Of a DNA stretch of 64,000 nucleotides, positions 26,198 to 63,742 are shown in pieces (position 1 is the first letter of the stretch; the number at the start of each line of letters is the position of its first letter). A program made the position numbers and the translations under genes. The notes beneath the pieces are model-generated. The model was not told where the DNA came from. It worked only from the letters and a program-made list of their open reading frames with translations, and ran no database searches. The stretch comes from Microthyrium microscopicum. Taxonomy: Eukaryota; Ascomycota; Dothideomycetes; Microthyriales; Microthyriaceae. The stretch covers positions 2,647,988 to 2,711,987 of the forward strand of contig MU004234.1 in NCBI GenBank assembly GCA_010405405.1, read 5' to 3'.

Positions 26198-28535
26198 CTT
26201 TTAGTTTAGTGCAATAATAATTTTTACTAATTATAGATCGTAGTACTACTCTTTATAATTATATATTGGTTTTATAAAAGGGATAATTATATCCTATAAC
26301 TAGTATACTAGATTTAGCAACTTACTTAGCTACGCTAAATTACTAGTAAAAGGGTAATATAGAGAGGAAAGCTATAGAAAAGGCTACTAATAAACTAAAG
26401 ACTTTATAGCCTTAATTAAACTATAAACTTAACTATATATATAAAAAATATATATAAATTACTAGTAAAAGAACTTAATTAACTAAAAATAATATAGTAA
26501 GGACTAATTCTAAGGCAAAATCTATTAATAGATGCTAAAAAGGCTAACCTTTAGGTAAGGCAAAGTCGCTTTATTAAATATAAAAAGACTACTAAAGAAT
26601 TTAGTAATTAGGATAGTAAGATTAACTACTCTACTCTAAAAAAAAGAGCTTTTAAGATATATAATATTACTATATAGACTAAAATCCTAGGATAGATAAT
26701 TTATAAATATTACGTCCTTTAGCTATATAAAAAGTAAATTCTATATTTACGTCTAAAGCTTAGATACTTTAAAGATCTAGTAACTAGGTAATTATAGTAG
26801 TATATAACGTTTAAGGAAGCAAGTAACTACTTTTTAGTTAATAAATCTATAGTCTCTTATTAGTAAAAAAAGCAAGATAAGGCTAAATTTATTACTAGTA
26901 ACTAGAAGAAGATAGAACTTAATATAGAATAAGAATACTTCCTAGACTTAGAATTTATAATCTATTGCTAGTTTATTATTTAGCTTATAGAGAACTAAGA
27001 GATTTTATCTAGCTAGTTCTTTAGAGAGGCTACTTAATAATAGCCTCTAGTATATACTTTCCTTATAGCATCTAGATAGGCTATTCCTTAAAGACCTTAC
27101 TTTTTAAGAAGCTAGCTTATAAGGTTTTAAAAACGCTACTAGATTTCTTATTAAAAGATAACCTATATAAGCTAAAACCTTTCTTAAGATTAGAAACAAT
27201 TTATTAATCGTTTTATTTCTTTTTATTAGTAATGCTATACTAGGTTAGTTACTCCTATAGGCTATAAAGTAGAGGCATATACCTAAATCCCTACTTATTT
27301 TATTATAAATAGTAATAAAACTCCTTATATATATAAAACTATACCTAGCTATATCTATTACTTAGTAAGATTAAACAATATGTCTTATACTATTTCTAAA
27401 AGCAAACGAAAGAAATAATTAATAATAGTATATTTAGGAGCCTTTACTAATAAGAAGATAGTTATAAAACTATTAATTATATTCTATAGATTACCTACTA
27501 AATATTACGATTAAAATAAAGTTATTAAGGGATTTCTTTATAATAAACGCGTTATTATAAAGTTTAATAAAACTACCTAAATAAATTTATTCCTAATTAT
27601 TCTATAGATTAAAGATTAATAGGTTCCTTATATAGATTCTAAGTAGTACTAACTTAAGTAAGAATAATATTACTAATAAGCTTAAGGTAAGGATACTCTT
27701 CTTTAAATTTATTTTTATTCTAACTTATTCTTTAGAACGTAGTATAGGCTTTAATTCTTAAAGTAATAAAGCTTATGCTTTTATTACTACTAAACTTATA
27801 AAGTTTAATAGTAGTCCTACTAACTAAATTTACTTATTAATATAGTCTATACCTTCTTAGCTAACGTTAAAGGTTATTATTAACTCTATAGTATTTTATA
27901 TAACTAAAGAAGTTAAGGCTTACTATTACGCATATAGTATTATTCTTATAGTTATTACCCTTAGACTAATAGCTAAGATTTAACCTTTAGATATTAGCAT
28001 TAACTAAGTTATTAAGAAGTACCTTTAGGAATATTAAGACAAAATTACTTTTAAAGCGTATCTAAATAAAGATTTTTATAATCTTATTATAAGCAAAAAA
28101 TGTATTATCTTAACTAAAATAGTTACTTACGCGTAGGAAAAGGCTTATACTTAGTAAACTTATTAAAAATATAATATTATAAAGTATTCTTTTACTTATA
28201 CTAGAATTAATATTACTCTAAATAGCTTAGAAGATTATCTTATATTAGTAAAAGGAATAGCTACTAGTAATATTAATTTATTAGATTAGAGATTAATACT
28301 ACTACTAAGAAATAATTCTAATAATTTAAATCTTCCTAAGGAGATAAAGATTAAAAAAGAAAAGAGTATTCCTTTATTTTACGCTAACTAGGCTAATAAA
28401 GAAGAGGTTAATAATTACTTAAATTAATAAAAAGAAGAAGCTAATCCTTCTTCTAACTTTAAATCTAACTCTAAGTATATAGAATTAGAGCCTTTATAAT
28501 ATATAGATCCTTCTATAGTTATAGCTCTAGTTTAG

Positions 28536-28572
28536 ACTCTATTTTAGCCTCTATTTTAGCCTCTATTTTAGA
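28536..28572. repeat. Short 12-bp tandem repeat in the RIP island
   Basis: The 12-base unit CCTCTATTTTAG (first copy slightly different) is repeated three times in tandem inside the degraded island. It may be a relic of a repeated coding or spacer segment. No more can be said. Confidence 0.6.
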
Positions 28573-29529
28573 CTACTTATCCTTAATCTCTACTTTCGTC
28601 TTAGTCTTACTCTCTATCTTAGAATTAATATTAGACTATTTATACTTAATCTATTTTTGCTTTTCTAACTTAGTATAAAGCTTAACTAACGGATTAAACT
28701 TAAGAAGAGTAGCACTAACCTATTCTTTAATATTAGAGTTAAGCAAACTTTAACTATTAGAATAGACTTTCTCTCCTTATAAATTACTATCCTTCTATTT
28801 AGGTTCTAAAGAAGAGCCATAGCAAAAAGAAGGATAATTAGTCTTAGAAACCTAATCCTTCTTAGTAATAAAATCCTTAACTAGTAAGTCTTACTAATTA
28901 GGTAAAGTTTAATCTAAATCTTTAGCCTATTACAAAAGTTATTTAGAAGAGAGAACTAAGGGAACCTTATAAAAAGAAGGATCCTTAGGCTATAAAGATG
29001 CCTATAATAAAGAAGTTAATTATAAAGAAGCTTATTCTAAAGAAGTAATTAATAAAAGTAAAGAAATAGATTTTATATACTAATAACTACTACTAAAAGT
29101 TAGAGTTCTCTATACGTTAAGTCTTTTATTTTATCTTTATAAAGTATAAGAATCTTTTTTAGTTATTTATAAAATAACTTATATATTTGCCTTTAAAGCT
29201 AGTTTAATTAGTTACTAATTATATTAGTAAACCTATCTATAGTATATTATATCTCTATTTATAGAAGGAGTTATAGAAAGTAATATACTATCTTAAAATA
29301 AACTTTCTTTATTAGTAGTAGCTCTAAGAACTAAGTAATACTCTTCTTTAACTAAGAAATTATATAAGGAGATATAATTATAGGTTATATCTAGTATATA
29401 TTATTAATAAATTATTTTTTTAGTATAGCTAGGTATACCTATAAATAGTACTATAAGATCCTATAGTTTATATTTTATAGTTTAACTACTAGTAAATCTA
29501 TAAAGAATAATAGAAGATAGAGAGGCTAG

Positions 29530-29660
29530 AAAAGAAAAGAGAAAGAAAGAGCTAAGAAATAAGGTAAAGCTAAAGAGAATAGCTAAAGAGGAATAGCTAA
29601 AAAGAAATAGCTAAAGAGAAGCTAGAAGGAAATAGCTAAAGAAAAGGTAAAGATAGGAAA
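29530..29660. repeat. Purine-rich degenerate minisatellite in the RIP island
   Basis: A run of loosely repeated A/G-rich words built on AATAGCTAAAGAG-like units spans this stretch. The strand asymmetry (almost pure purine between TAGCT words) stands out against the surrounding sequence and may descend from a Lys/Glu-rich coding repeat. Confidence 0.5.
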
Positions 29661-31097
29661 TCTATAAAAGGAAAAGATATCTAGAAGCTATCTAGGATAA
29701 TAATTAATAGTAAATCTAGTCTAGAGTATAAAGCTTTAAAAGTTAAAGAAGCATATATAATAATCTAGTATTTAGGAATCTAAGCCTAACCTAAATAGGC
29801 TAGTTACTTTAAGAGAGCTAATTAGTAGTTTAGAAAATCTCTAGGGTTAATAAACTTTACTAGAATCTAACTTTATTTACTATTACTAGTAATAGAGATT
29901 AGTTATATAGTTATTTTTATTAGCTCTCTAACTTACTAAGAACGTAAGAATAATTTAAAGTAAATATAGTATAACTATCTTTAAAGATATAAGTTAGCTT
30001 AGGCTATCTTAGGCTTTTATCTTTCTTTATAAAAACTTATATCTTAGCCTATTATACTAAATAAATTATTATTTAAGAAGAGCTTATTAAATTAATCTTA
30101 GAGTTAGTAAATATCTTAGTATACTTATATATAAGTCTTATCTATTATAGTATCCTTAAGTTAGTATATATTATAAATCCTAAATAAATTAAAGTAATAA
30201 TTTATACCTAACTTATAGAAAAGTTTAAAGTAGTAAAGTTTAAGAGTAAAAAGAGATAGAAGTACTTATAGCCTCTAAAGTAATAATTATATAGTATTTA
30301 TTACTAAGCTTAATAAAAAGGGCCTTTATATTACTAACTTTTACGTATAAGACCTTAAGATTAGCTTTATTACTACTAATATAAAGTACTATATAGTAGT
30401 AATAAATACTAAATAGATATACTATTAAAAGACTAGATATTCCCTTTCTCTAAGTATAATACTTTTCTTTTAGAAAGTAGCTTACTTTTATATTAAAACT
30501 AGCTTTACTCTATAGGAAATAAGTTAATAAGAGGCTTACTACTCTCTTACTTAATCTATAAAAGCTTTTATACTAAAGATTAATATATTTACTAATAGGC
30601 TAAAAGCTATATAGACTAGTTCTCCTAATAATAATAATATACGTTTATTATTTATATATTTTTATTAAAAGGTACTTAATATAGAAAGTATATATCTAGT
30701 AACTAATAAAATAAATAGAAATAGATAATTAAACTATATTTCTTAAAAGATAGGCCGCCCTAATCTTTATTACTATTTTAGTAAAGATAAGCAAGATATT
30801 TTTATAGAAGCTATAAATAACGTCTAGTAACTACTCTAGCTTTAATTTACTATCTTTTATAGTAAATATATATAAATTAGATTAATATACTACCCTATAT
30901 ACTATGCCGCCCTAATAACGCTTTTTATTTAATTTTAGCTTAGCGTTATATTCTATTAGTCCTTCTTATTTAGAAATATTTACCTATATTTTAATATAAA
31001 ATAAATATTACCTAACGTAAGTAGAAAGGACTAAAATATAATTTATTAAAGTTCTACTTTATAAAATATATAAAGTTTATCTAAAATAAAGTATTTA

Positions 31098-31191
31098 CTA
31101 TCTAAGTAGAACTAAACTACTTTAAACTATTTAAGTAGAACTAAACTACTTTAAACTATCTAAGTAGAACTAAACTACTTTAAACTATTTA
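31098..31191. repeat. 29-bp tandem repeat abutting the assembly gap
   Basis: A 29-base unit containing AAGTAGAACTAAACTACTTT is repeated just over three times and runs directly into the gap. The unit itself contains an inverted repeat (AAGTAG/CTACTT). The array probably continues into the gap and caused it. Confidence 0.8.
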
Positions 31192-31756
31192 NNNNNNNNN
31201 NNNNNNNNNNNNNNNNNNNNNNNNNNNNNNNNNNNNNNNNNNNNNNNNNNNNNNNNNNNNNNNNNNNNNNNNNNNNNNNNNNNNNNNNNNNNNNNNNNNN
31301 NNNNNNNNNNNNNNNNNNNNNNNNNNNNNNNNNNNNNNNNNNNNNNNNNNNNNNNNNNNNNNNNNNNNNNNNNNNNNNNNNNNNNNNNNNNNNNNNNNNN
31401 NNNNNNNNNNNNNNNNNNNNNNNNNNNNNNNNNNNNNNNNNNNNNNNNNNNNNNNNNNNNNNNNNNNNNNNNNNNNNNNNNNNNNNNNNNNNNNNNNNNN
31501 NNNNNNNNNNNNNNNNNNNNNNNNNNNNNNNNNNNNNNNNNNNNNNNNNNNNNNNNNNNNNNNNNNNNNNNNNNNNNNNNNNNNNNNNNNNNNNNNNNNN
31601 NNNNNNNNNNNNNNNNNNNNNNNNNNNNNNNNNNNNNNNNNNNNNNNNNNNNNNNNNNNNNNNNNNNNNNNNNNNNNNNNNNNNNNNNNNNNNNNNNNNN
31701 NNNNNNNNNNNNNNNNNNNNNNNNNNNNNNNNNNNNNNNNNNNNNNNNNNNNNNNN
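31192..31756. other. Assembly gap (565 N)
   Basis: These are undetermined bases within the AT-rich island, so the true length is unknown. The tandem repeat on the left edge suggests repeat collapse during assembly. Confidence 0.99.
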
Positions 31757-38219: not shown

Positions 38220-38797
38220 TCATTCCATAGTGTCGTCTTGATCTGTCTCGTCAAGTCGCTCCTGCATGTTATCTGGGTCCTGATTTTGAAATTCCTCCAG
38301 GAGATTCTTCCCGCGGATGGTAACAAACAAGTCAATCAACTTCTGGCACTTCTGCGTAAACTCTTCCTGAACTGGTCGGCTACGAAGTTGCTGCATTTTG
38401 GTGCAATTGAGGCAGATTTGGAGAATGGAGAAAGCTTGCAGGAATTTGGTCTTCATCTTCTGGTATGTATCGTCTACGTCCTGAAGAAATTCCGTGATCT
38501 TTCTGATGGACTCTTGTGTCTCCGCTAGAAGCTTTGAATTAGAGCGGCCTATCGTGGTCTGAAAAGAGTTAGTCCTGGCTGATTGATAATTGCTGACAGA
38601 AGCGGCCTTACAACTCTCTGCTTGAATGTCTCTAAGAACCTCAATGCAGCTCCAGTTGATTCTGAGTCTGACATCATCTCAGATATTGGCCCTCGGGGCT
38701 TGATGAACTCGTCTATGTCCGAAAGGAACTTGCTATCCGCGCTCAGCAGTTGGAGAGCCGCAAGGATCTTTCGACATTCGTGATGTTCGCTGGCCAT
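38220..38797 (-). CDS. Unrecognised helical protein, member 1 of a two-gene pair
   Basis: There are two exons, 38797-38612 and 38558-38220. The intron is 53 nt and phase 0, giving 174 aa. I do not recognise the protein. It is predicted largely helical, with no signal peptide or membrane segment. It aligns end to end with the gene at 39277-39845. Shared features are the start MASEHHECRKILAAL versus MAREIQECRRIAAVL, an LS.D....L...DE core, the same intron position, and the block QQLRSRPVQEEFTQKCQKLI...LF...RGKN versus QRMRSQCIQDEYTEKCQQMT...LF...RGEN. The tail is acidic. The ATG at 38797 is chosen because it matches the start of the paralog. The two genes are a tandem duplication, now strongly diverged. 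Confidence 0.75.
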
Positions 38798-39276: not shown

Positions 39277-39845
39277 CTAATCTTCCATCCTGTTCTGTTC
39301 TATTCTGCTTTCTAGATTCTCGAGCGCATCTTGTAACTCCGGTTTCTGCAGCTCTTCTTGAATGTTTTCTCCACGAAAGCTGGTAAAAAGCTCGGTCATT
39401 TGTTGACACTTCTCTGTATACTCATCTTGAATGCACTGACTGCGCATACGTTGCAGGTCAGGATTCTCAGCAGATTCTTGTATTGTATGGAACATGCTCA
39501 GGAAGATGCCCTTAAAGGTCTTGTATTCGCTCTCCACCGAAGTCATCATTTCGGTCATCTTTGAAATGTCTTCTTTCTCTGTCTGGGACTGTTCAAGTTA
39601 GTCACTTTTCGTGAGAACCATCCAATGTGTAGGGTTTGTGGACGCACCAGAGCTGAAATATTCCGGTCCAAAAGTCGGAGCATGGCCTCTGCGCTCGCGA
39701 AAGTGTCTTTAGACATGGCAATTGCATCCATCGCGGGCCTCATGCGCTTGAGGGATTCGTCCAATTGGCAAAGAACTCGATGATCGAGACTTAGTTGTCG
39801 AAGGACGGCAGCGATTCGCCGGCATTCCTGTATTTCCCTCGCCAT
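39277..39845 (-). CDS. Unrecognised helical protein, member 2 of a two-gene pair
   Basis: There are two exons, 39845-39648 and 39588-39277. The intron is 59 nt and phase 0, giving 169 aa. It is the paralog of the gene at 38220-38797, with the same exon layout and a similar Cys-Arg-rich first helix (ECRRIAAVLRQLSLDH). It also shares the QRMRSQCIQDEYTEKCQQMT block and an acidic, Glu-rich tail (EELQKPELQDALENLESRIE). There is no secretion signal or known domain. Length and codon content are normal for a functional gene. The pair's function is unknown; intracellular, possibly coiled-coil-forming proteins are all that can be inferred. Confidence 0.75.
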
Positions 39846-40283: not shown

Positions 40284-41440
40284 TCATTCTTGAAGTCTCC
40301 ACTCGCCCTGACGACTGATAAGTGTGCCCAGGTCGAGCTCATCGCTGCTTGAATCAATTGTCTCTGCGTCAACCAAGACTCGCCTGCTTGTCTTCAGACT
40401 CGGGAGTTCGTCCCATGCTGGCATTACCTCAAACTCGAACAAAGCGAAATGAGTTATCGTACCGCATAAGTGATTTACGCCTTTCGTGACCCATTCTGCT
40501 GCACAATGGAGCTTTGCCAGGTAGTGATCAGTGAGTTCCAAGTCCTCGATGATCTTTTCAGTCAAAGCGTTGGCCTCTTCCAAGAGCCGCTGAAGTGAAT
40601 TAGTATCGTACTTTCCAAAGATAGGCATAGTTCTTACCTTGTCCCATAGAGCACGAGACTGATTATTGCCCGTGTTTGATCTGTGACGCTTCTGGGAACT
40701 AGATGTACTCGATTGTGCTTGAAGGGCTCGCTTATTTCCTTTGCTAATTTGCCTGAGCTCTTCCCAGGATTTTGATACGATGGTCTGCTTTGCCTTCTTC
40801 TCGTTGAGTGTGCGCTCAAATCCGTCCAGAAGGTTTCGACTCATTCGAGCGCATCGCTCGCGAAGCTCGGGACAATCCATTCGCGCAGCTAGGTTACAAA
40901 GGTTACACATCTGGTCAACGACTTTAGCTTCCAATTGCTGTAACCGTATTTCATTTCCCACTCCTTAGTTGTATATTTCAGAAGAGGTTCCATATTAGCT
41001 TTCAGAGTGGGATTTGCAATACCGACCTTGTAGTGTTAGTGACTATCGCACTGTTTATACTATTCATCATTGAAACTCACGACACTTTTCTTGAGAACGT
41101 CAACCTCGTCATCTACTGCGGGTATCCCGGCTGGATCCATGTAGTACTCTTTGTCCATCTCTTTGCTGTAAGTCTTGCTCTGTCCGTCTGATCCCTTCAA
41201 AGTCACTTCGTCGCTCTTTATGAATCTGTTGGGATAAGACTGCTCGATGTGTAAACCAGCCATATTTGTCTTGGCAAGGAACTGTTGGAATAGCTGTAGG
41301 CTGGCTTGAACGATGTCTCGATCCACATATTCTGAATCGGAAGTCTGTGTGGTAGTGAAGCTTGCCTCGTCACTAGACTCTGAAGATGATACAGAAAGGA
41401 AGATGTCTTCGTCAAGAAAGATGACCTTAACATTGGAAGC
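40284..41440 (-). CDS. Unrecognised protein, 5' end unresolved
   Basis: Four exons can be joined in phase: 41440-41081, 41026-40945, 40888-40638 and 40589-40284. They give 332 codons after a splice acceptor at 41441. The start codon is not found: a candidate first exon starting ATGTCAGAATTGAGC at 41585 does not connect in frame. Either the first exon lies elsewhere, an unusual donor is used, or the gene is losing function. The protein is acidic with a Ser/Thr-rich segment (SSSESSDEASFTTTQTSDSE), then mixed helical sequence with CPELRERCARMSRNLLDGFE and a basic linker. The last intron (48 nt, TACTAAT branch site) is in frame and stop-free, so retention would add 16 residues. A donor GTTACA for the third intron is atypical. 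No domain is recognised, and it is not clearly related to its neighbours. Confidence 0.5.
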
Positions 41441-42205
41441 CTGAGTTCGGAGCTATCAGCCGCTCATAAATTGAAAAGATTCATCAAGAAGGCCTCACCA
41501 TTACTGTGGATGGCTTTCGATATAGGCTGAAGCCCTCTGAAGCTGTGAATACCGAACAGGGGGATGTTCTGGCTCAATTCTGACATAGGCCGAGTTAGTA
41601 CTCAATTAAGTTAATTGTGACACGCGGCCAGGGTCAAAAAGCGTTGAACTTACAAATGTAATTGTGATCATGGATGTAGTGGAGATGAAGAAGGATGCAG
41701 ATGATCAAGTTTAGCGAAAGAAATATACGAAATCTTCACCAGACAGTGCAAATTCTTCTGCACAACAGATGACTCTCAGTCTTTGATGTACATCCTAGCG
41801 TAGAAAGAAGGCAGTCAAAATCTCTGATCATTTGATTATGAACTCATCAGAGCGGAACGAGAAAGGAGACGACTGCCAGATAGGGTATGTGACTGCAGTG
41901 GAATCTTTGGTCTCTATTGCTCACCACGGTAAGAGAAACACTTTCAACGAAGGCCTTGACGATAATGAAGATTTACTAAAGTAATAGCAGAGGAGCGATG
42001 ATAGGTAAGTGATTAACTGAAGGTTATCTTCCTGACATTCACCAGTTTTGCTTGGCCATAAACATAATGAGGCGTACCGCAGGTTTTAGCTATTAATATT
42101 GCGAGCATATCTACTCCGAAATGTGATACAAAGAGTGATTTAACAACTACAAGTACTCGACGGTCAATTATCTTCCTACATCGTTCGGATATCCATCCAT
42201 AGTCA
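41441..42205. other. Region upstream of the unresolved gene
   Basis: This may contain one or two small 5' exons of the gene at 40284-41440 (an intron-like GTAAGT...TATGTCAG unit lies near 41590-41655) and the 3' flank of the next gene. Nothing can be called firmly. Confidence 0.35.
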
Positions 42206-43404
42206 TCACATCATCTCAGTATCACCGTCGTCCGCTGCAATTGCATCGTCCGTTCCTGCTATAGGACCTGGGAGCGTCCACCCGTTTAGCTCCGAAGCAA
42301 GCCACTTGTCAATGGTCTTTTCGATAGCATGGGCATAACCGACCAGCTTGCAGATGATATCTTTCCAAACATCCCACAATTTTGGCCGGCTGAAAGCTGC
42401 GATGCTAAGTACTTCTACTGGATCAACTGGGACACCGGTATTGTAAGGGGAACTTCCCTTGGAGATCTTGGACATCTTGATATACAGGTATCTGAAGAAC
42501 TCGGTCTGTTCTGGCGTTTCATTCCCATGTAATGATGGCCAGATACCATTGGTCTGAAAGCGTTCTTTGATGTAATGAACACAATCAAACACTTCCCGAG
42601 CATGACACTGCTCTACAACCAGAGTCGCAGCCATTGTGTTAGTGTCCCTTTTGACAGTTTGAAGCGCATATTCCACCGCTTGAAGCTCTTTTGAAGAAAT
42701 TGGGCGGGATATTCCTGACTCTGCATTGCTTAGGCTCAATTGTGAGAAGGATATGTCAATCTCGTCTTGGGATCCGAGTGGAGGAAATTGTGACATTTCA
42801 AGCTCAAAGAATTCTGCGGCGGAGGAGATCTGCTGTTGTGCCTCGTTGATATAGTTTTGCAGCTCCATCATGAGGAGCTCGTTGGGGTGAGCCGAAGAGT
42901 CAGAGTAGTAAAGCTCGACGATCGCTCCATATTCCAGGTCGTCCTGTAGGGCAGTTATAGTGCCAGGTGCTTCCTCTTCACTTGAGATCACTGGAACATT
43001 GTAATACTGGTTGAGTACCTTGGGCAAAGGATGGAGCAAGTGAGCGATTGCTTCGAAAAGAAACTCCTGCTGGGCCGCGACTAAGTGCACAACTTTCCAG
43101 TGCTCCGTAGATCGCTTCTGACGTTGGCCGGCCACTGGGCTGGGCTTCGTTGACCTTTTCTGTCGGTACTGCCGAGCAACATGTCGACTCGTCGAATTCT
43201 TCCCGCAATCTTGCTGAATTAGCTGAGACTTGGATGGTCGAGTATGGATTGGTAGAGTCATCTGAGCCAACTCTTTGTTTTGGCGCACTTTGCGCTGGCG
43301 GATAGGCAAACTTGTAAGCTCTCTATGATATAGTTAGTATCCCAATATACTGGAGAATAAAGGGGAACTCACGCGAAATGCGATGGCGTCTGCTTTGGTG
43401 CCAT
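42206..43404 (-). CDS. LPIRQRK-family paralog 1 (unrecognised)
   Basis: There are two exons, 43404-43373 and 43322-42206, giving 382 aa. The 32-nt first exon encodes MAPKQTPSHF plus two bases of an Ala codon, and a 50-nt intron leads straight into ELTSLPIRQRKVRQNKE. This layout is shared with the genes at 44183 and 45828. A basic Gln/Ser-rich stretch follows, then conserved block 1 (VAAQQEFLFEAIAHLLHPLP...YYN, near 85-115) and a long variable helical middle. Conserved block 2 is near the C-terminus (VLSIAAFSRPKLWDVWKDII followed by AHAIEKTIDKWLASE). The tail is acidic and ends at Met-Met. No signal peptide, membrane segment or known domain is seen. The basic start could be a nuclear or nucleic-acid-binding tail, but that is speculation. 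Confidence 0.8.
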
Positions 43405-44182
43405 AGTGACGACGGGGCAGATATATTGTTGTGTGATATAGCTGATGTGATGTTGATATAACAGTGGTTCAGAGCAATTATGGCTGAAGTCTGCGTGGTG
43501 GAGCCAAAAGAGCCCGGTTGACTGAAATTTTCCCAGTTTCTTGGACGCGGAGTAGCGGGATTGTAGTGTGGGAAGAGTAGGTTCTGGACAACAGGAACCT
43601 GGGGACGCTCGGAAGTAAAGGGAGATTCTGAACGACCGGAGTGACCCCCAGCGTCGACTTTAGGTTGTGTTGACTTCACTTCTTTGCACCTCGAATTTGT
43701 CGTTGGAATAGATCATTCCCGAGATGCCAGTGACCGTCAGAGTAGATAGGCTTGCGTGATCCGGGTATAACTCCTCTACATAGCAACTATGGACAGAATG
43801 TCAAGAGATTGGATGGGTTTAAGTAATGCCATCAGTGGTATTGGACACACCTTCCGCCTCGAGAAATCTGATTTTTACAATTAAGCTATATCGCTCCAAA
43901 ACGATCGAACTTTTAGCTCTCATCTGCCAATTGTGGGCTAAATGATATGATTCAAGGTATCCTATTCGAGACGAGATGAGCCTTTCTAGGTATAGGAATC
44001 TCTCGTTTGTTAAGATTCTATTTAATGGTCTACTGTGTTGATCAACTCAGCTTAGATACAAACATGCCTGGCTACAAAGAAATACCGTTTCTCTCGCAAG
44101 CGACTCCTAGATTCAATTTTCTCAAACAAAGTAATTTTCTGGCCTGACCAGTATATAACTCCTTTTCAATCGCCCTTATGCC
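43405..44182. other. Intergenic within the minus-strand array
   Basis: This holds the promoter of paralog 1, including its SCACCTCRAA box at 43686-43695, and the 3' flank of paralog 2. No gene is seen. Confidence 0.5.
43686..43695 (-). promoter_or_regulatory. Shared promoter box, paralog 1
   Basis: GCACCTCGAA on the plus strand (TTCGAGGTGC in gene direction) lies 282 bp before the start codon. The same box recurs at similar distance before the other three paralogs. Next to it, TTCACTTCTTT resembles TTCACTTTTAC next to the paralog-2 box. Confidence 0.45.
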
Positions 44183-45238
44183 CTAGAGCGATGCGAGCCA
44201 GCTATCGACAAGTTTTTCGACCGCTGCGGCATGATCAATAAGCTTCGTCGCCGTCTCTCGCCAAAGCCTCCACAATTTCGGACGGTTGAACGCCGCAACC
44301 GCCAGAAGCTCCAGAGAGCGAGCTCGAGGACCGCTGAAAGGAGAGTCCGCGTTGGATAGGTTGACATATATAAACTTCAATAGATCAGCCGCGAGCCTAC
44401 TCTCTGTCTCATCCGGCGTTTCGTCATCCAGGGGTGCCGAGACTGCACTGTTATCGAACTGTTCTTCGATAGACAATGCGGAACGCAATGCTTCAAGTAG
44501 CTGGCACTTTTCAGCAGCCAATGTGGTGGAACTGACGACAATGTCCTTTTTCAGATCTCTTAGGGTATGTTCTACAGCCAGGCGCTCTTGCAAAGGCAAT
44601 GGCTGGTAAACCGTCTCGTTGACACTCAACTTATTGAAGATGATATGCAAATCATCCTCGCTTCCTGGAACCAGAAAAGGAAGGACTTGTGGAAGCTTAG
44701 TATACAACGTAGTAAGCTTGACTTGAAATGATTCTGCTGCGATGGGAATATGCTTTTCAGCTTTGGCAACACAGTCTGGCAAATTCTCCATGATACAACT
44801 ACGAATTGACGAGGAAGAACTTCGGGGCACTGTTGACAGCCCAAATAATGATCGCTCAACCCTGATCGCCTGGTTGTTTTGATAATGGTTCCACATGTCC
44901 GGTAAGGGGACATGCATGTCAGCGATGGTTTCTAACAATATCTGCTGCTGAGCTGCCACAAAGGCCACGAATGATCCGTGGTCGGAACGTTTTGGTCGCT
45001 TTGGTATTGAGAGTCTAGTCGACTTCTTCGGCTTTTGGGTCTTCTTGATCATTCGTTCATCTTTTCGGGAGTGTGTTGGAAGAACCGACGGAGTTATCTC
45101 TTGTTGTTGCCGGGTCTTTCTCTGCCGGATCGGCAGGTTGGTGAGGTTTCTGTTTAGAATCAGCATTATAGTAAGACGGATTAACAAGAGGGTAATGAAG
45201 ACTTACGCGAAAGGCTTTGGAGATTGTCGAGGCGCCAT
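44183..45238 (-). CDS. LPIRQRK-family paralog 2 (unrecognised)
   Basis: There are two exons, 45238-45207 and 45149-44183. The intron is 57 nt and phase 2, as in paralog 1, giving 332 aa. The first exon encodes MAPRQSPKPF and the second opens NLTNLPIRQRKTRQQQE, followed by a Lys-rich stretch (KKTQKPKKSTRLSIPKRPKR) that looks like a nuclear localisation signal. Block 1 is FVAFVAAQQQILLETIADMH with PLPDMWNHYQNN; block 2 is LELLAVAAFNRPKLWRLWRE with AAAVEKLVDSWLASL at the very C-terminus. It ends earlier than paralog 1 and lacks the acidic tail. The middle carries an ERLAVEHTLRDLKKDIVVSS helix that matches ELQAVEYALQTVKRDTNTMA of paralog 1. These two are the closest pair. Function unknown. Confidence 0.8.
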
Positions 45239-45827
45239 TCTGGAGGAGTGCAATTGGCAAGCTCGAGATTGTAATTGTGCTAATAAAGTTGGAATAAAAC
45301 AATGCAAGTACGCGTGGAACGGGAAGGTTCGGCGCAACTGTCCTGAAAAGCTTAGATGTAGCGTTTGGGAGTGTGGTGATGGTAAGATTAATGTTTGAAC
45401 AATCCAAAGGCGCATTGTATATATGGGGAGTCTTCGAACATCTAGAGTAAGTTCTTGCGCCTGCTATGGTGTCAAGTGACCGTGTCAAGTTCACTTTTAC
45501 GCACCTCGAAGCGTGAGGTGAAAGATCGGATTCTTTAGGTGCCATCATACCTTGTAAGCCTAGATATCTCGTAGGTAAAATTTGGTAAGCAATGCATCTC
45601 TTCTGCAATTTGATGATAGGAGGTCAAGAAAATAAGATAATGGGAGATTATAGAAACCAGGAATCAAGGGAATGACAAAGGATAATATAAGGAACCTGGG
45701 AAAATGAGACATCTAGAACAACAGACTGGCCGCTCCATTGCAGCCAACAAAATGCTGTGTAATAGAGTTGAGTATCCTTTCTGAAAACCTCCTGTTCGAA
45801 AATTAGGCCCTTAGCAACCTACATCAT
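45239..45827. other. Intergenic within the minus-strand array
   Basis: This is the promoter of paralog 2, with the shared box at 45501-45510, and the 3' flank of paralog 3. Nothing else is seen. Confidence 0.5.
45501..45510 (-). promoter_or_regulatory. Shared promoter box, paralog 2
   Basis: GCACCTCGAA lies 263 bp before the start codon and is identical to the box of paralog 1. Confidence 0.45.
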
Positions 45828-47180
45828 TCAGATGAAATCTTTCGACTCCCTCTGTGGAGTTTGTTTTATACCTATATCATATCTCTTGCCCAATTCATGC
45901 TTAGCGGTATGCGTTTTCGAGCCCCAAAGCGATTGTCCTTTTGCCTCCAAAGCAAGCCATTGCCTGAACGACTTTTCCACAATAGCAGCCTTCTCATCAA
46001 GCTCAATAGTCATCTCTCCCCACCGCTTCCATAGTGCTGGCCGGCTAAAGGCCGCAAGCATGACCATGTCTTTTATGGGGAGAGGCGCACCTGGGCGATG
46101 AACTGCATGCAGCTGGGCCATCTTGGTGTTTACCCATCGTTCAAACCCAGCAAAGGCTCTAATGCTTATCTCTTCTGGGCTTTCAACCTTTAGAGGGATC
46201 CAACTATTGCTGAGCTTGAATCCCCATTGGAGGATCTGCATAGACTGCAAGACGTCTTCGACATTGCTTTTCTCCAGGTCCAGCTTTTGGTGTACTAGTC
46301 GAGCTTCTGTATACATCTTCGCCAGAACCGGATTCGTAGCGAGACGATCGTGAAAAGCCATTTCCTCTGTTACAATCGTCATCCAATTCATGAAGCTTAT
46401 ATCCGAGAGAATATTAGTGACTTCATTCTCCTCTTTGTCAACGAACGATAAGACATTCGGTAGTGTATTTGAGATTCTTGTAAGCGTAGATCGGAGAGAT
46501 CCTCGCGCAGTAAGTAAGCGTTTATTCGCTGAGCTAATCTGGTTCTGGAAATCTTCCTTGAAGCGATCATGCTTTGAAGTGTTAGAGTCCATATGATATC
46601 GTTGGAGAATATCTTGAAGCAGTCAGTAAATTCATCTTGTTATCTTTTGCTGACACATACTGTCCAAGTCTTCCTCAAATGGTACTGCCGCGAGGTTTGG
46701 GTATAGCGCACAAATTTCGTTCAACGACGCGAGCATCTCTTTAGTGTTCTGCGAAATGATCTTGCGCTGTATACCTGCCATTGCTATATAAGCCTCATGG
46801 TCTCGAAGGCTCTTAGGAGCTGATAGATCTGACTCGACAATCGAGATGTTGGTTGGATGACTCGAACTTTTGCCATAGCGTAAACGAAAAACCATGCTCT
46901 TGCTTTGGTGAGTTGAACGAGGCGGCTTCTCTGAGAGACTTGCATGATGATCCGGCCCTTTGCCTTGGCGTAATGGTAGAGCTATGCTCTTGTTCTGATG
47001 ATTAGGAACGGCCTTCTTCTCGTGACCTCGGAAAGGCAGCGTCATTTCCTTGTGTTGATCAATTTTGCGCTGTCGGATAGGAAGATTCATGAGGTTGCTG
47101 TGCTTAAATTAGCATAGCATATGGATAGGCCCTGGTGTTACTACTCACGTGAACGGTGTTTCTGTCTTCTTGACTGCCAT
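45828..47180 (-). CDS. LPIRQRK-family paralog 3 (unrecognised), with internal motif repeats
   Basis: There are three exons, 47180-47149, 47097-46661 and 46612-45828. Phases agree, giving 417 aa. Exon 1 (32 nt) encodes MAVKKTETPF; exon 2 starts TNLMNLPIRQRKIDQHKEMT. The N-terminal region then repeats the motif twice more in degenerate form (SIALPLRQGKGPDHH and SMVFRLRYGKSSSHP) within a ~29-residue unit (EKKAVPNHQNKS / EKPPRSTHQSKS). Block 1 is weaker here (MAGIQRKIISQNTKEMLASL). The second intron interrupts an Asn codon (LDNILQRY), at the same place as in paralog 4. Block 2 is VMLAAFSRPALWKRWGEMTI with AAIVEKSFRQWLALE. No known domain. The extra intron and repeat units show continued change of the N-terminus within the family. 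Confidence 0.8.
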
Positions 47181-47646
47181 GGTGATAAAACCACTGGGCT
47201 ATCTCAAAATAGGGGTTTGGTTTATGATGTTTGAAACGGAGAGAGCAGTAGAGGCGTGCGCAGAACCTGGGGATGCGATGAGCTGTAGCGCAGGAGTAGA
47301 TAGGAGAAAGGTTGAGAGAACTGGGAGGCGTGTTAAGGTTAAGAGAAGCCTTCGAACTTGCGAAGTGACTAGTCTAGATGTTGACCTCTATACCATTTTC
47401 AGGCATGTGCACCTCAAAAGCTGCTAGATGAAGGCACCTACCAAATGCCAGTCACTTTGAGAACAGGAGCGCTTGGTAGTCTAGAATAGAGAATCTTGCC
47501 CACCAAATAAGAGTAGAAACTCTACTGCAGAGATCAGATCATGTCCTTCATGGCGTCGTGCATATATATACTAACTACAACGAACTTCGAACTTTGCAAG
47601 CTTCGATTCAGACCTGCCATCCTGTATTGATGGCTGAGTGAGCCCA
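47181..47646. other. Intergenic within the minus-strand array
   Basis: This is the promoter of paralog 3, with its box at 47409-47418, and the 3' flank of paralog 4. No gene is seen. Confidence 0.5.
47409..47418 (-). promoter_or_regulatory. Shared promoter box, paralog 3
   Basis: GCACCTCAAA, one base from the box of paralogs 1 and 2, lies 229 bp before the start codon. Confidence 0.4.
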
Positions 47647-48959
47647 TCATATATCTATATCCATGTTCTCGTCTTCCATCATGTCACCGTCACTGTTGTC
47701 TCTATTCTTAGAGATCGAGCGTCCTTTTGCCGTATGGGTAATCCACATGTCAAGAGCTTTCTCGACAACACAAGCCTGCTCAGATAGCTCTTTCGTTGAG
47801 TCAGCCCAGAGTTCCCAGAGTCGGAGCTGGCCATATGCTGCGATGGTAAGGAGTAGCATCGGATCAGCTGGGGAAGAATCGTCAAGCGTGAGTAGACAAG
47901 TGGCTTTCAATGAGAGTGACTTCAGGATTTCGCTCTGAACTCTGCGCTTGGTTTGCTCGGGCTCTTCATCCCACAGAGGAACACGGATAGCGTTGGTTTC
48001 GAATTGTTGGCTGACCGATTTGACGGTCTGCAATATATTTTCCACTTTGATATGTTCCGAGCGAAACAACTGCGAAAACCAGCTGAACGAGATCTTCAAT
48101 TGCTGTAGCTTTTGACGTAATTCGGGAGCGTCTGAAGGATCTGAAGTCGATGCCTCCGCTTCTGAGACCAGTGGTGCCGTGATTCCTTCCGTGAAGGCCA
48201 TGCGTTGTAAAAACTCGTGAAGATTGTCTGCGTTGAGGGAAGCAGCAGTCTTTTTTTCTGTCAAGTCCAGGCTCTGGAAGTCCTTGAGCAGATCTTCTGT
48301 AGCATGAGTCTTCAGCAGCGGAATCTCTTGGTAAAGTGTTATGATATAGGCCTGCGCTAGCATTGCGTTGAACGCAACTCGCTTGGTTTGAGATTTGACA
48401 AACGTGTCCAGGTTGTTCTGTCGCTCGTGGGGAAGGGGCGATGTAGATCCAGCATAGAATTCATCCAAGATATCTGTTATTAGTCAGTGCATAGCTTGTA
48501 GGTTACTTTGGGGCAGCAAATACTTTGCTCGTATAAGGCGGTCTCTTCTCTACCAGCCATAGCTAAAGATAGCTTCTCCCCAGTGGTAAGCATAGAAACG
48601 CTGTTATAGTGCTCGAAGACGCAGCGCAAAGGGATAAGCATCTTGGCGACGGTCGCTGATACAACCCTATGTTGAATATCTACCATGGTCATCACTGGCC
48701 ATGGCCCCCGTCGTGGTGGACCTCGTCGGATCAGGGGAAGTCGTGATGGCTTGGAACCGTTGTCTACGATAGACAGGAATTTGCCCTTGCTGATTACGCG
48801 AGTCTTATTGGCTCCTGAATTGAACGAGGCACCCATTTTGCTGAGACACCCAGAGTTGGGCTTGCGGTCTTGGGGGGCTGTTTTTTGGCTAACGCGAAGT
48901 TAGCATGCTGCTAGATAACCAGCACGAGGCAATACCACGACTTACTTTGGAGGGAGCAT
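47647..48959 (-). CDS. LPIRQRK-family paralog 4 (unrecognised), divergent N-terminus
   Basis: There are three exons, 48959-48946, 48888-48524 and 48473-47647. Phases agree, giving 401 aa. The 14-nt first exon (MLPPN) is a minimal model; the splice signals GTAAGT and GTTAG support it, but a start at the internal ATG 48836 (MGASFNSG) is possible. The N-terminus has lost the exact LPIRQRK motif and keeps only a basic SRLPLIRRGPPRRGPW. Block 1 is MVDIQHRVVSATVAKMLIPL with VFEHYNS; the following intron falls in the Asn codon of EQNILDEF as in paralog 3. Block 2 is LLTIAAYGQLRLWELWADST with ACVVEKALDMWITH, where the Arg-Pro of the motif is replaced. The tail is acidic. It is the most diverged member. 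Function unknown. Confidence 0.75.
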
Positions 48960-59588: not shown

Positions 59589-62071
59589 TCATTTTCCCTT
59601 TGTCTGCGCAATAATTCTTGCTGTTGCCTCCTCGGCAGCAATCATGATGATGGCCTGAGTATTACCAGTTGGCAAGTCAGGATGGAACGAAGCATCGGTG
59701 ACATAGAGATTGTCAGTGCCATAGACCTTGGTTTTCAAGTCAACTACCGCCGTGCCGCCCTTGGTGCCATCATCTGGGCCCATCTTAGCTCCACCGATGA
59801 AATGAACACCTTGCTGGACCGGTGTTTTGAGGACCGTTTGTGCAGTGGAATCTTTGCCGGCGGAGTAGGAGAGACGGCTACCTTCCTTGCGGGTCATGTT
59901 GAAGAGGTCATCAAGGGCTAAAGTCATAGCCTCCTTGTCGTGGTCGGTCTGGAGCCAAGGTTGCGTCTTGAAAAACGTGTTGCCAAAGGCGTTGATAGAG
60001 AGCTGGCCCTTGGAAGTCTGCCCGTGGGTCATGAGGAAAGTAAACTCAATTTGATTGCCTGCGTCGAGGAGAGGGACGGCGCAATGTGCTTGGTAGAAGA
60101 CGCTCTGGCCAGCCTTCGTTACCACACGTTTGAAGATATCCATGCGCATGAAAGATTGAGTTAGCGCACCAATGCCTTGCTGATACTGAGTTTTCACTTC
60201 TGCTGCAGGGAACGCCATGTTGAAGTTGCTGTAAGCCTTGACACCCTTGGCCACATTGAATGTGAGCATATATCGAGAGTGGTCCATGACTTCCATGCCG
60301 ACTGGAGACTTGATCCAGTCCTTCTCATCTGGAAGCTGAACTGGAATTCTGCCTGTCTTGACTGCGTTGATTTGCTCAGGTAGTCCGATTCCTGAACGCC
60401 ACAGAATACGGGGAGTGGACATAACGCCAGCGGAGAGAACAACGCTTCCGCCTGCCTTTAGGTTGTGAAGCTCTCGAGTGCCCTTGGCATTCTCAATTTC
60501 CACTCCGGTCATTTTCGAGCCATTACGAGTAACGCGGATTACCTTGCTCTGTAGCAGCAGCTTGAAGTTGTCCTTTTTCTGTACTAATGGCAAGTATGTC
60601 ACCAAAGGACCTCCGCGCATGCCGTTGTGGATCTATGTAGAAGGTTAGTTTAGTGCTAATATGGTCCGACTGAGGTTTCTTACGTTGAGCGCAGGGCGAC
60701 CATAAGTATGATTTTTATCGTCTGGGGTTTTCATACTATCGGCTTCATTCCAGCCATTGCTCTTGAAGAACTGCTCCAGAACGTCATAGATGTCGGCATC
60801 ATACCACTTTCCATCTTTCGAGGGTGCAGTAGTACCGGGATTTCTCTCGTAAAGACGTGCAGCGGGCTTCGCCATGTCTTTCGATTTCCAACCTGTTGGC
60901 CAACGTGTATCGAAATCCCAAGACGGCGGACGAATGAAAGCCATGCCATTCATTGTTCCACCACCACCAAGGATGCAACCTGAAAGACCAGCAGTATCGG
61001 TGCAGAAGCCCTCTCCTAGTGTGGCAAAAGGCATGGGAATAAAAGTTCCTGGGACATCATAGTATGTTAGGGTCTTATTCCAAGACACCCAATTCTTTCC
61101 GCCCGTTGCGGCGGTGGAGGGACCACCTCGCTCGACAAGAAGAACGGACTTTCCGGTTTCGGCCAGTCGTGTGGCTGTAATGAGGCCAGCAGGGCCGGTA
61201 CCGACGACAATGTAGTCCCATGTGGAGTTGGAGACAGCTGCTGGTGTAGTCGGGGCTTTGGGAGGTGGAGTAGCTCCCGCTGGCTTGTCAGCGGCTCCTG
61301 CAGTTGCGGCCCACGTGGCGAACTTTGACGATCGTGCCTTTGTGAGGTCGATTGGGAACAAGCCATAGCCTGATGCGTGGAAAGGTATGGCGGACTCTGG
61401 GTCAGAGGGCTTGGTGACGGCAGTCGATGTGAGACCGTAGCCTAGGTTAGGAGTGGTGTCGTCAGCCTTGAATGTCGATGTATCCGTCTGGATACATCCT
61501 TTGCACAAGAATGTGTAAGTCCACGTTGTACCATCAGCGGATGTTCCAGCTGCTATCGGTCTCAGCGACATGGTAGTATTTGCGCTTGGTGTTGGCATTT
61601 GATATCCTACGGAATCCCGCAGCGAAGCAACAACATTTTTGCCATTAGGCCATGCGATAACCATCAGACTTTTAGCCATCGGTCCTCCAAGCGAAACACC
61701 CGACCCTAAAGAGCTTGTCAGCCTCAATTCTCATTAACGTTTGGGGTGTTGGCCATGAACATCAAATGCATTGAAGAACTAGTGTCCCATCCTACTGGAA
61801 CAGCAACATCACACATAAAAGATAACGATTCGGAATTATAGGATTTCCACTTACATCCTTTGGCACCTGTACCAACGAGTCGACCGATAAAGTCGCCTGT
61901 TGGTTTTTCAGGAAGAGCAATGCCAAATGTGAAGCCCCCTTTGGCAACCTGTTGGAACTGAATTCCCGACTTAGCATCAGTGAAAGCGGTTGATTGAGCC
62001 TGCGTGGTTCTAACAAGGCCAAGGCCGAGCGAGACCGCCGTCAGAATGGTATTCCAAGCCATGATTGGCAT
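59589..62071 (-). CDS. Cellobiose-dehydrogenase-like flavocytochrome (cytochrome + GMC)
   Basis: This is a secreted oxidoreductase that would oxidise a sugar at FAD and pass electrons through haem b to outside acceptors such as lytic polysaccharide monooxygenases. There are three exons, 62071-61855, 61705-60684 and 60632-59589. Introns are 149 and 51 nt, giving 760 aa, the usual CDH length. A signal peptide ends near TTQAQS. The cytochrome domain (AA8) has the Met ligand in SLGGPMAKSLMVIAWPN and the His ligand region in IPFHASGYGLFPIDL. After a Pro/Ala linker comes the GMC domain: YIVVGTGPAGLITATRLAET (FAD Rossmann motif), CILGGGGTMNGMAFIRPP, and the catalytic pair His in GVHFIGGAKMGPDDG and Asn in LPTGNTQA. 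No cellulose-binding module follows, so it is class II without CBM. The substrate may differ from cellobiose. Confidence 0.92.
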
Positions 62072-62905
62072 CGCACAAAGACTGAAAGGTCGCGAAAGAG
62101 ATTCTTCCTAGTCGCACCCAGAGAGCCGTACGTTGAGAAATCCAAGCCAATGGACTACAAGGAATGGTTGACTTCGATGAAAATCCCCCATCTCGACCAG
62201 AAGATAAGTATCCAAGAAATATATAGATTGCACTGGCCTCAATATGGGTATGTCAGATTAAGCTTTTTCCTTTAATTGAAGAACAATTGGTTAATTGGAG
62301 CCAGTGTAGGACTTTGATTGACATAAAGAACCGTATTTGAGCAATCATTACCTATCTCGCTTTCGTACTTTTCAGAAGGTCTAAGCTCTACCAGAACTTG
62401 GCTTATGATTAAGATCTCTTAATCAAGGCTTACGCCTAATTTGATGTTATGAAACCAGGTAGGTGAACAGAGCTTGGAGCAGGTGAGCTTTGAAAGCCAA
62501 TCAGAATCACGACGTACCTAATATATATTATAGACATCCGAACTGATCGGTTCAACGAAGCATCGTTCACAACCCTAGCCGAATAGATGGCCTGCAGGCC
62601 TTCATAATTCCCCAAGATCGGTCAGCCGAAGTGTACGACCGTATTTATAGTACGATCAAAAACCTGCTCATTACTGGTCCCCAATATGTGTGGGGCTATC
62701 ATGTTGCGATGCATAATACCGACAGGATGAAACTATTTTTGTTCCCTGGATCGAGTTTGCCGTCAGTATATTTATTATACCTATGTGCGCCTGCATGTGA
62801 TGCTTCCTTCGCCTCTTTACCTTAAGAAAGTTCTGTAAGTCTGAGGGTTCCTTCGCATTCCAAATCACAACTCTCCTTCTGTCTCACGCCATTCCTTCAA
62901 GCAAC
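62072..62905. promoter_or_regulatory. Divergent promoter between flavocytochrome and cytochrome genes
   Basis: This 834-bp region lies between two oppositely directed genes for functionally related secreted redox proteins. It is long enough to hold independent or shared control sites. AT-rich, TATA-like stretches occur near 62520-62535 and near 62640. I cannot point to a specific carbon-response site with confidence. Confidence 0.5.
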
Positions 62906-63742
62906 ATGAAGCTTCTGAGCCTTGCCCTCCTTGCTACGGCAGGCTATGTTTCTGCTCAAGACGCTGAGGCAGCAAAAGCCTTCACTGATCCAGCCACGGG
63001 AATTTCCTTCCAGGCAATTACCAGTGCAAAAGGCACAAAATTTGGTATTGCATTACCGAAAACTGGGAGCAAAGATTTGATCGGCTTTTTGGTACGTGGT
63101 TCTATCATTAGGGTGGTTCGCAAGCGATATGACTTGTGCAATAAACGAAGTGGCAATGATATATCGAATTTATGCTAACCAGTTTCTAGTCTGCTCCAAA
63201 GGGCATGTCCTACACAGGCGGAGTTCTGGGTACTAAGATGAATGGCACTGTAAGCTAGCATCTCCTGTTCACCACGGCCTTGGACTATGTCCATGTTTGT
63301 TGCACTGGCTAATTGTCTCCGCTGTTAGGTCCTTCTCGTCGCCTGGCCTAATGGCAATAGCATGATGGGCTCTATCCGCAAGGTGCCGGACGGTCCCAAA
63401 GGGCATGCCTCACCAGTAGAGTTGAAAACTGACATATCAATGGCTGTAATCCCTAAAGGATCATTCGTTGCGCCGTCCGGTGACTGGCAGTACACATTCG
63501 TCTGCACCGGCTGTCTTGGTCGCAAGGACGTTTATCCTGCCACAGCTGCCAAGGAGACTCTAGCATGGGCAGTTAGCACGACACCATTGACAGAGCCAGC
63601 GAAGCAAGATGGCCCACTAAACCATCATCATGCAGGAAGTGGAAGATTCACAGTGGACATGGTCAGTGCACGACATGAGAAATACGATCAATGGGCAAAG
63701 ACAGCAAAGACAGCTACCAAGGCTACATACCTACTCAGATAG
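62906..63742 (+). CDS. Secreted stand-alone CDH-type cytochrome domain (AA8-like)
   Basis: There are three exons, 62906-63091, 63190-63249 and 63329-63742. Introns are 98 and 79 nt, giving 219 aa. A clear signal peptide (MKLLSLALLATAGYVSAQ) precedes a domain homologous to the N-terminal cytochrome of the neighbouring flavocytochrome. Shared features are AFTDPATGISFQAITS versus AFTDAKSGIQFQQVAK, FGIALPKTGSKDLIGFL versus FGIALPEKPTGDFIGRL, GTKMNGTVLLVAWPNGN versus GGPMAKSLMVIAWPNGK (Met ligand), WQYTFVCTGC versus WTYTFLCKGC, and HHHAGSGRFTVDM versus FHASGYGLFPIDL (His ligand). No flavin domain, cellulose-binding module or GPI signal follows, and the protein stops soon after the domain. It should bind haem b and act as a soluble extracellular electron carrier; this is inference from the family. 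Confidence 0.85.

Follow-up and report, generated by a model that had tools for sequence, protein, structure and literature searches.

Four anciently duplicated tandem genes without a named domain in Microthyrium microscopicum

What are the four similar genes that lie side by side in a 64,000-nucleotide (nt) stretch of the Microthyrium microscopicum genome (GenBank contig MU004234.1, positions 2,647,988 to 2,711,987 of the forward strand; hereafter "the window"), and what could their products do? The genes, here called g1 to g4, follow one another on the minus strand, and an earlier note made from the DNA letters had proposed that they may form an undescribed fungal family expanded by local duplication. 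Our analysis indicates that g1-g4 form a real family to which the searched libraries assign no named domain. As a tandem family that is old and whose function is unknown, it belongs to a known kind. Many fungal genes lack a named domain, so the finding is of an ordinary kind.

Four homologous tandem genes, old and under constraint

The coordinates and exon models proposed in the earlier note proved right: each of the four genes splices at GT-AG sites into one open frame, with introns of 48-57 nt (Table 1). We compared the four proteins with BLASTP, using a fixed search space of 1e7, and all six pairs were significant, with E-values from 3e-47 (g2/g1) to 3e-10 (g3/g4) and none above 3.4e-10. 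All pairs also scored far above their shuffled counterparts, with z-scores of 19-72 (100 shuffles per pair). The similarity therefore exceeds chance, confirming the observation of four consecutive minus-strand paralogs.

The gene structures carry the same message. As had been claimed, g1, g2 and g3 begin with a 32-nt exon followed by a phase-2 intron and the motif LPIRQRK; the residues directly before this motif, early in exon 2, are E-L-T-S in g1, N-L-T-N in g2 and N-L-M-N in g3. The fourth gene, g4, lacks LPIRQRK and has a first exon of just 14 nt that likewise ends in phase 2; nothing in the exon models is less certain than the g4 ATG. The first intron is thus in phase 2 in all four genes and falls at the same residue in g1-g3, with its exact place in g4 uncertain because the g4 exon is shorter. 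A second intron, in phase 1, occurs only in g3 and g4, where it interrupts an Asn codon right before an aligned I-L, and is lacking in g1 and g2. MAFFT puts the split-codon Asn residues of g3 and g4 in different columns, around a gap. Two histories are conceivable: loss of this intron ahead of the g1/g2 split, or its gain in an ancestor of g3 and g4.

The duplicates are far apart at the nucleotide level. Their coding sequences (CDS) are 38-53% identical, and every aligned 100-nt stretch is at most 63% identical. The proportion of synonymous differences (pS, 0.63-0.87) exceeds that of nonsynonymous differences (pN, 0.39-0.55) in all six pairs. Synonymous distance is undefined through saturation in four of the six pairs and has values of 1.35 and 3.33 in the remaining ones, so the ratio of nonsynonymous to synonymous substitution rates (dN/dS) shows constraint only. 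We conclude that g1-g4 are homologous tandem genes whose frames and splice sites are intact. Their protein similarity has been kept at near or past synonymous saturation, which marks the duplicates as old and constrained. Relative codon adaptation is 0.82-0.84 in g1-g4 and 0.82-0.85 in four conserved neighbour genes, which also served as the reference. It is lower in both shifted frames of each gene, barely so in frame +2 of g2 (0.825 vs 0.822).

We read the order of the duplications from pairwise bit scores alone. In the better direction of each BLASTP comparison, g1/g2 reaches up to 177 bits, g3/g2 98 and g3/g1 86, and g4 is the most distant member, with 75.5 bits to g2, 63 to g1 and 54.7 to g3. 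These scores fit tandem duplication long ago, in which g1 and g2 were the last to separate. A strict stepwise duplication by neighbours found no support, as g4 scores best with g2 and not with the adjacent g3.

When g2, g3 and g4 were searched against the organism's own genome, which comprises 36.9 Mb on 20 contigs, only the four loci were found. At E ≤ 10, all matches fell on g1-g4 (4/4, 4/4 and 5/5, respectively, the last count including two exons of g4); these copy counts, obtained with three of the four proteins, are lower bounds. A DNA pattern for block 2, a conserved C-terminal stretch described below, matched g1, g2 and g3 only, and a pattern coding for LPIRQRK had three exact genome matches, all in g1-g3. 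One-mismatch matches to the latter number 27, against 13 for a reversed control pattern; nine of these 27 were translated, and none resembles the start of a family member. Scans of viral contigs gave 25 pattern matches with the four-protein alignment, 15 with hA (a neighbouring gene described below) and 6 with g2, and prokaryotic genomes gave 15 with the four-protein alignment; none was confirmed in either set, an expected and uninformative outcome. Overall, the tandem arrangement on one strand, the first-exon architecture common to g1-g3 and the absence of other copies with three queries bear out local duplication. The word "expanded" fits less well: with four of six pairs saturated and a CDS identity this low, the genes are better called anciently duplicated.

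Conserved parts and predicted structure of the proteins

Two regions stand out in the protein alignment. Counting gap-free columns, 11 of the first 22 residues are identical in g1-g3, compared with 15/37 in block 2, 4/32 in block 1 (a second stretch that the earlier note had named as conserved) and 24/220 in the rest. When g4 is added, identical columns number 4/8 at the N-terminus, 10/37 in block 2, 3/32 in block 1 and 9/218 elsewhere. A contrast had been drawn between fast-changing N-termini and a fixed block 2. This was partly wrong, because block 2 is no better conserved than the first 22 residues of g1-g3, but it does hold for the linker behind these residues. Block 2 itself is present in all four proteins, which have AA, LW, W, L, A, EK and W in common, although its proposed opening AAFxRP is found in three and replaced by AAYGQL in g4. 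Block 1 was the weakest of the claims: beyond its few identical columns, g3 lacks the PL and g4 the YxN said to mark it.

The N-terminal regions of g1-g3 share a second feature. Within the first 105 residues, the pattern LPx(R/H) occurs twice in g1, twice in g2, three times in g3 and not at all in g4, with shuffle means of 0.02-0.03; the counts in g1-g3 were reached by at most 0.0004 of 5000 shuffles. It was not found anywhere beyond residue 105 in g1-g4. The first 115 residues are basic, with 20-28 K/R/H and 5-10 D/E, and g1 and g4 end in acidic C-terminal tails.

Sequence searches supported the statement that the proteins carry no known domain. Pfam and NCBIfam were scanned with one sequence at a time, and the PDB was searched with a profile of only four sequences. 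The best Pfam match, to SelB-wing_1 in g4, scored 17.7 bits (E 0.003) against a cut-off of 25; no family was common to two members, g2 and g3 had no match, and the scan of g1-g4 revealed neither a transposon domain nor a known recognition domain such as STAND or HET. The best NCBIfam match had an E-value of 0.006 and concerned one member of the four. Profile searches of the PDB, with the whole four-protein alignment or with its core, gave only chance-level matches (E 0.36 or worse).

AlphaFold2 models, built with the four sequences only, were all-helical both for the contiguous exons (mean predicted local distance difference test score, pLDDT, 49.0; predicted template modelling score, pTM, 0.34) and for the core alone (mean pLDDT 55.8; pTM 0.40), and by these models the proteins are probably mostly helical. 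The names returned by a fold search with the core model (201 matches at E ≤ 10) were set aside: the best 50 of the 201 are mostly unrelated helical proteins, and nothing was drawn from them. The highest hydropathy over 19 residues in g1-g4 is 1.15, and no membrane span was found in them by hydropathy. Nor did a signal peptide-like start show in Kyte-Doolittle windows over residues 1-30, where no value in g1-g4 exceeds -0.18. We infer that the four proteins are soluble and intracellular.

Possible working of the family and its alternatives

The reading we favour, at a probability of roughly 0.45, is that g1-g4 would be an orphan family of non-enzymatic, intracellular helical adaptor or structural proteins, with a basic tail for docking or targeting. 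Each protein would have three parts: a short conserved N-terminal motif that ends in L-x-x-LPIRQRK in g1-g3; a basic, probably disordered linker that in g1-g3 carries further LPx(R/H) copies; and a helical C-terminal region in which block 2, the most fixed stretch, is predicted to form a short and a long helix with conserved tryptophans. More tentatively, the N-terminal part may dock to a common partner or send the proteins to the nucleus, the helical region could make protein contacts, possibly between paralogs, and the paralogs might be diverged subunits with an adaptor or structural role, not an enzymatic one.

Several points weigh against this reading. The helical interpretation of the core is provisional because both models are of low confidence, and a fold search of the PDB with the low-confidence core model returned 0 matches at E ≤ 0.001 (best E 0.33). 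The docking and nuclear roles are suggested solely by composition and motif conservation. Since g4 lacks LPIRQRK, the motif is not required by every member, and the LPx(R/H) pattern was picked after the sequences had been seen. Moreover, the gap between pS and pN is small for g1/g4 (0.626 vs 0.544). A bolder version of the adaptor reading, which strikes us as improbable, would have a tryptophan-bearing helical bundle outside Pfam and a new N-terminal docking motif (L-x-x-LPIRQRK with repeated LPx(R/H)) amplified into cooperating diverged subunits, in an orphan-gene island shared with a second gene pair, hA/hB, near a block scarred by repeat-induced point mutation (RIP).

Among the alternatives, the best survivor, doubtful as we hold it to be, is that the family is already known and went unrecognised. 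It would then be a rapidly evolving subunit of some conserved complex, such as a coiled-coil structural or chromatin protein, too far removed from its homologs for these searches to find them. Many such subunits are helical, basic-tailed proteins under constraint, and a profile of only four sequences together with single-sequence Pfam and NCBIfam scans leaves room for relatives of this kind. Against it, the four-sequence profile matched nothing in the PDB, Pfam gave no match reaching its cut-off, and four diverged tandem copies would be unusual for a stoichiometric subunit.

We consider it unlikely that the g1-g4 products are interaction proteins that evolve fast and whose tandem copies were kept for diversity, examples being recognition factors, incompatibility factors and proteins that act on another organism. 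Such a role would suit the fast divergence outside the conserved motifs, where 9 of the 218 remaining columns are identical in all four, as well as the finding of copies at a single locus, close to both an AT-rich, RIP-scarred block and another pair that has no named domain. It sits poorly with the lack of a signal peptide-like start in the first 30 residues of g1-g4 (hydropathy no higher than -0.18) and with a Pfam scan free of STAND, HET and other known recognition domains. Selection also speaks against it, pN being below pS in 6/6 pairs, although this near to or past saturation episodes of positive selection may still have occurred.

That g1-g4 are relics of a mobile element, domesticated or not, is very improbable: multi-copy genes without a named domain next to an AT-rich, RIP-mutated block do recall such elements, yet no dispersed copies were found in the genome with the g2, g3 and g4 queries, all four genes have introns in the same phase, and they carry neither a RIP signature nor a Pfam transposon domain. 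The chance that we are looking at non-genic open reading frames or decaying pseudogenes is negligible, given intact frames and splice sites in 4/4 genes and protein similarity kept at near-saturated synonymous divergence.

The adaptor reading concerns function; the genes' history can be set beside systems already known. Like tandem-duplicated orphan gene families of filamentous ascomycetes, g1-g4 are adjacent, lie on the same strand, have intron phases in common, lack a named domain and have diverged middles. Unlike in families of that sort, their copies are old, as the CDS identity of 38-53% indicates. They also recall paralogs in genomes with RIP, a genome defence of the Neurospora type, in that the window has a block with a RIP signature and the genome has C5-DNA-methylase matches at four places; unlike RIP-mutated paralogs, g1-g4 are free of that signature, and they may either predate RIP or have escaped it. 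Passages of PMC12543289 describe RIP as hindering evolution via gene duplication and the majority of N. crassa paralogs as older than RIP, and g1-g4, as old diverged tandem copies, agree with the duplication-before-RIP picture given in those passages. Text searches of the literature, in which no sequence search was possible, brought up no title or abstract opening on such a family among the papers listed.

What the locus offers is a well-defined candidate family at one place, with four old intact paralogs, all sharing a conserved C-terminal stretch and three of them also a conserved N-terminal motif. If the helical region were a new fold, it would provide a structural target and the array a test of tandem-copy survival in a repeat-mutating genome.

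Table 1. Positions of the features in the window; all lie on the minus strand, and upstream distances are counted from the ATG.
Feature	Position	Strand	Description
g1	42206-43404	-	protein 382 amino acids (aa)
g1 exon 1	43373..43404	-	32 nt, MAPKQTPSHF + 2 nt
g1 exon 2	42206..43322	-	LPIRQRK, block 1, block 2, acidic tail
g1 block 2	42293..42400	-	36 codons
g1 upstream element	43667..43695	-	TTCGAGGTGC; GAGGTG at -288; 79% identical over 29 nt to g2 element
g2	44183-45238	-	protein 332 aa
g2 exon 1	45207..45238	-	32 nt, MAPRQSPKPF + 2 nt
g2 exon 2	44183..45149	-	protein stops directly after block 2
g2 block 2	44189..44296	-	
g2 upstream element	45482..45510	-	GAGGTG at -269
g3	45828-47180	-	protein 417 aa
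g3 exon 1	47149..47180	-	32 nt, MAVKKTETPF + 2 nt
g3 exon 2	46661..47097	-	LPIRQRK + two more LPx(R/H) copies
g3 exon 3	45828..46612	-	predicted helical region including block 2
g3 block 2	45948..46055	-	
g4	47647-48959	-	protein 401 aa
g4 exon 1	48946..48959	-	14 nt, then phase-2 intron
g4 exon 2	48524..48888	-	basic N-terminal region + block 1
g4 exon 3	47647..48473	-	block 2 + acidic tail; phase-1 intron precedes
g4 block 2	47734..47841	-	diverged, AAYGQLRLW
hA	39277..39845	-	169 aa, one phase-0 intron
hB	38220..38797	-	173 aa, one phase-0 intron

Upstream and neighbouring sequence

Each of the four family genes has one GAGGTG, as part of a TTYGAGGTG-like element, at -233 to -288 from its ATG, and neither hA nor hB (0/2) has a GAGGTG within 500 nt upstream. 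The repeat upstream of g1 and g2, noticed after the fact, looks like a duplicated-promoter remnant or a common control site. The former seems the case because two-mismatch genome matches to TTYGAGGTG do not rise above control. A genome-wide regulon was rejected, with two exact matches (g1 and g2) and four two-mismatch matches, equal to the four control matches.

The gene island is larger than the earlier note had described, as a second tandem pair, hA/hB, lies next to g1-g4 on their downstream side. The two proteins match each other with an E-value of 1e-20, and their introns fall about 10 alignment columns apart. A genome search with hA placed all four of its matches on the hA/hB pair and found no other copies, and a Pfam scan of both proteins gave only weak matches below cut-off. 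Comparisons of this pair with g1-g4 revealed no kinship (hhalign probability 0.2%; shuffle z at most 2.3). Between the two tandem families, at 40284-41452 on the minus strand, lies a probable third gene with, by eye, at least two exons; its fragment 40287-40910 showed no similarity to either family (z at most 2.3 in shuffles), and its Pfam matches were weak and below cut-off.

Beyond hA/hB, an AT-rich block extends over about 26.2-32.9 kb of the window, with short tandem repeats inside it and 565 consecutive N at 31192-31756. Its main part (26250-31190) has a GC content of 0.226, a TpA/ApT ratio of 1.73 and a (CpA+TpG)/(ApC+GpT) ratio of 0.08, and so carries a strong RIP signature. No such signature was found in g1-g4, where the same ratios are 0.62-0.72 and 1.28-1.54. 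The C5-DNA-methylase matches in the genome number six, and one of them, elsewhere in the genome, is a 710-aa frame that we take to resemble RID/Masc1, the RIP enzyme.

Further along the window, a match to GMC oxidoreductase at 59592-60632 belongs to a locus at 59589-62107 on the minus strand, in which the frames before the match look by eye like the cytochrome domain of cellobiose dehydrogenase. Similar cytochrome-like frames, at 62801-63742 on the plus strand, face this locus from the opposite strand.

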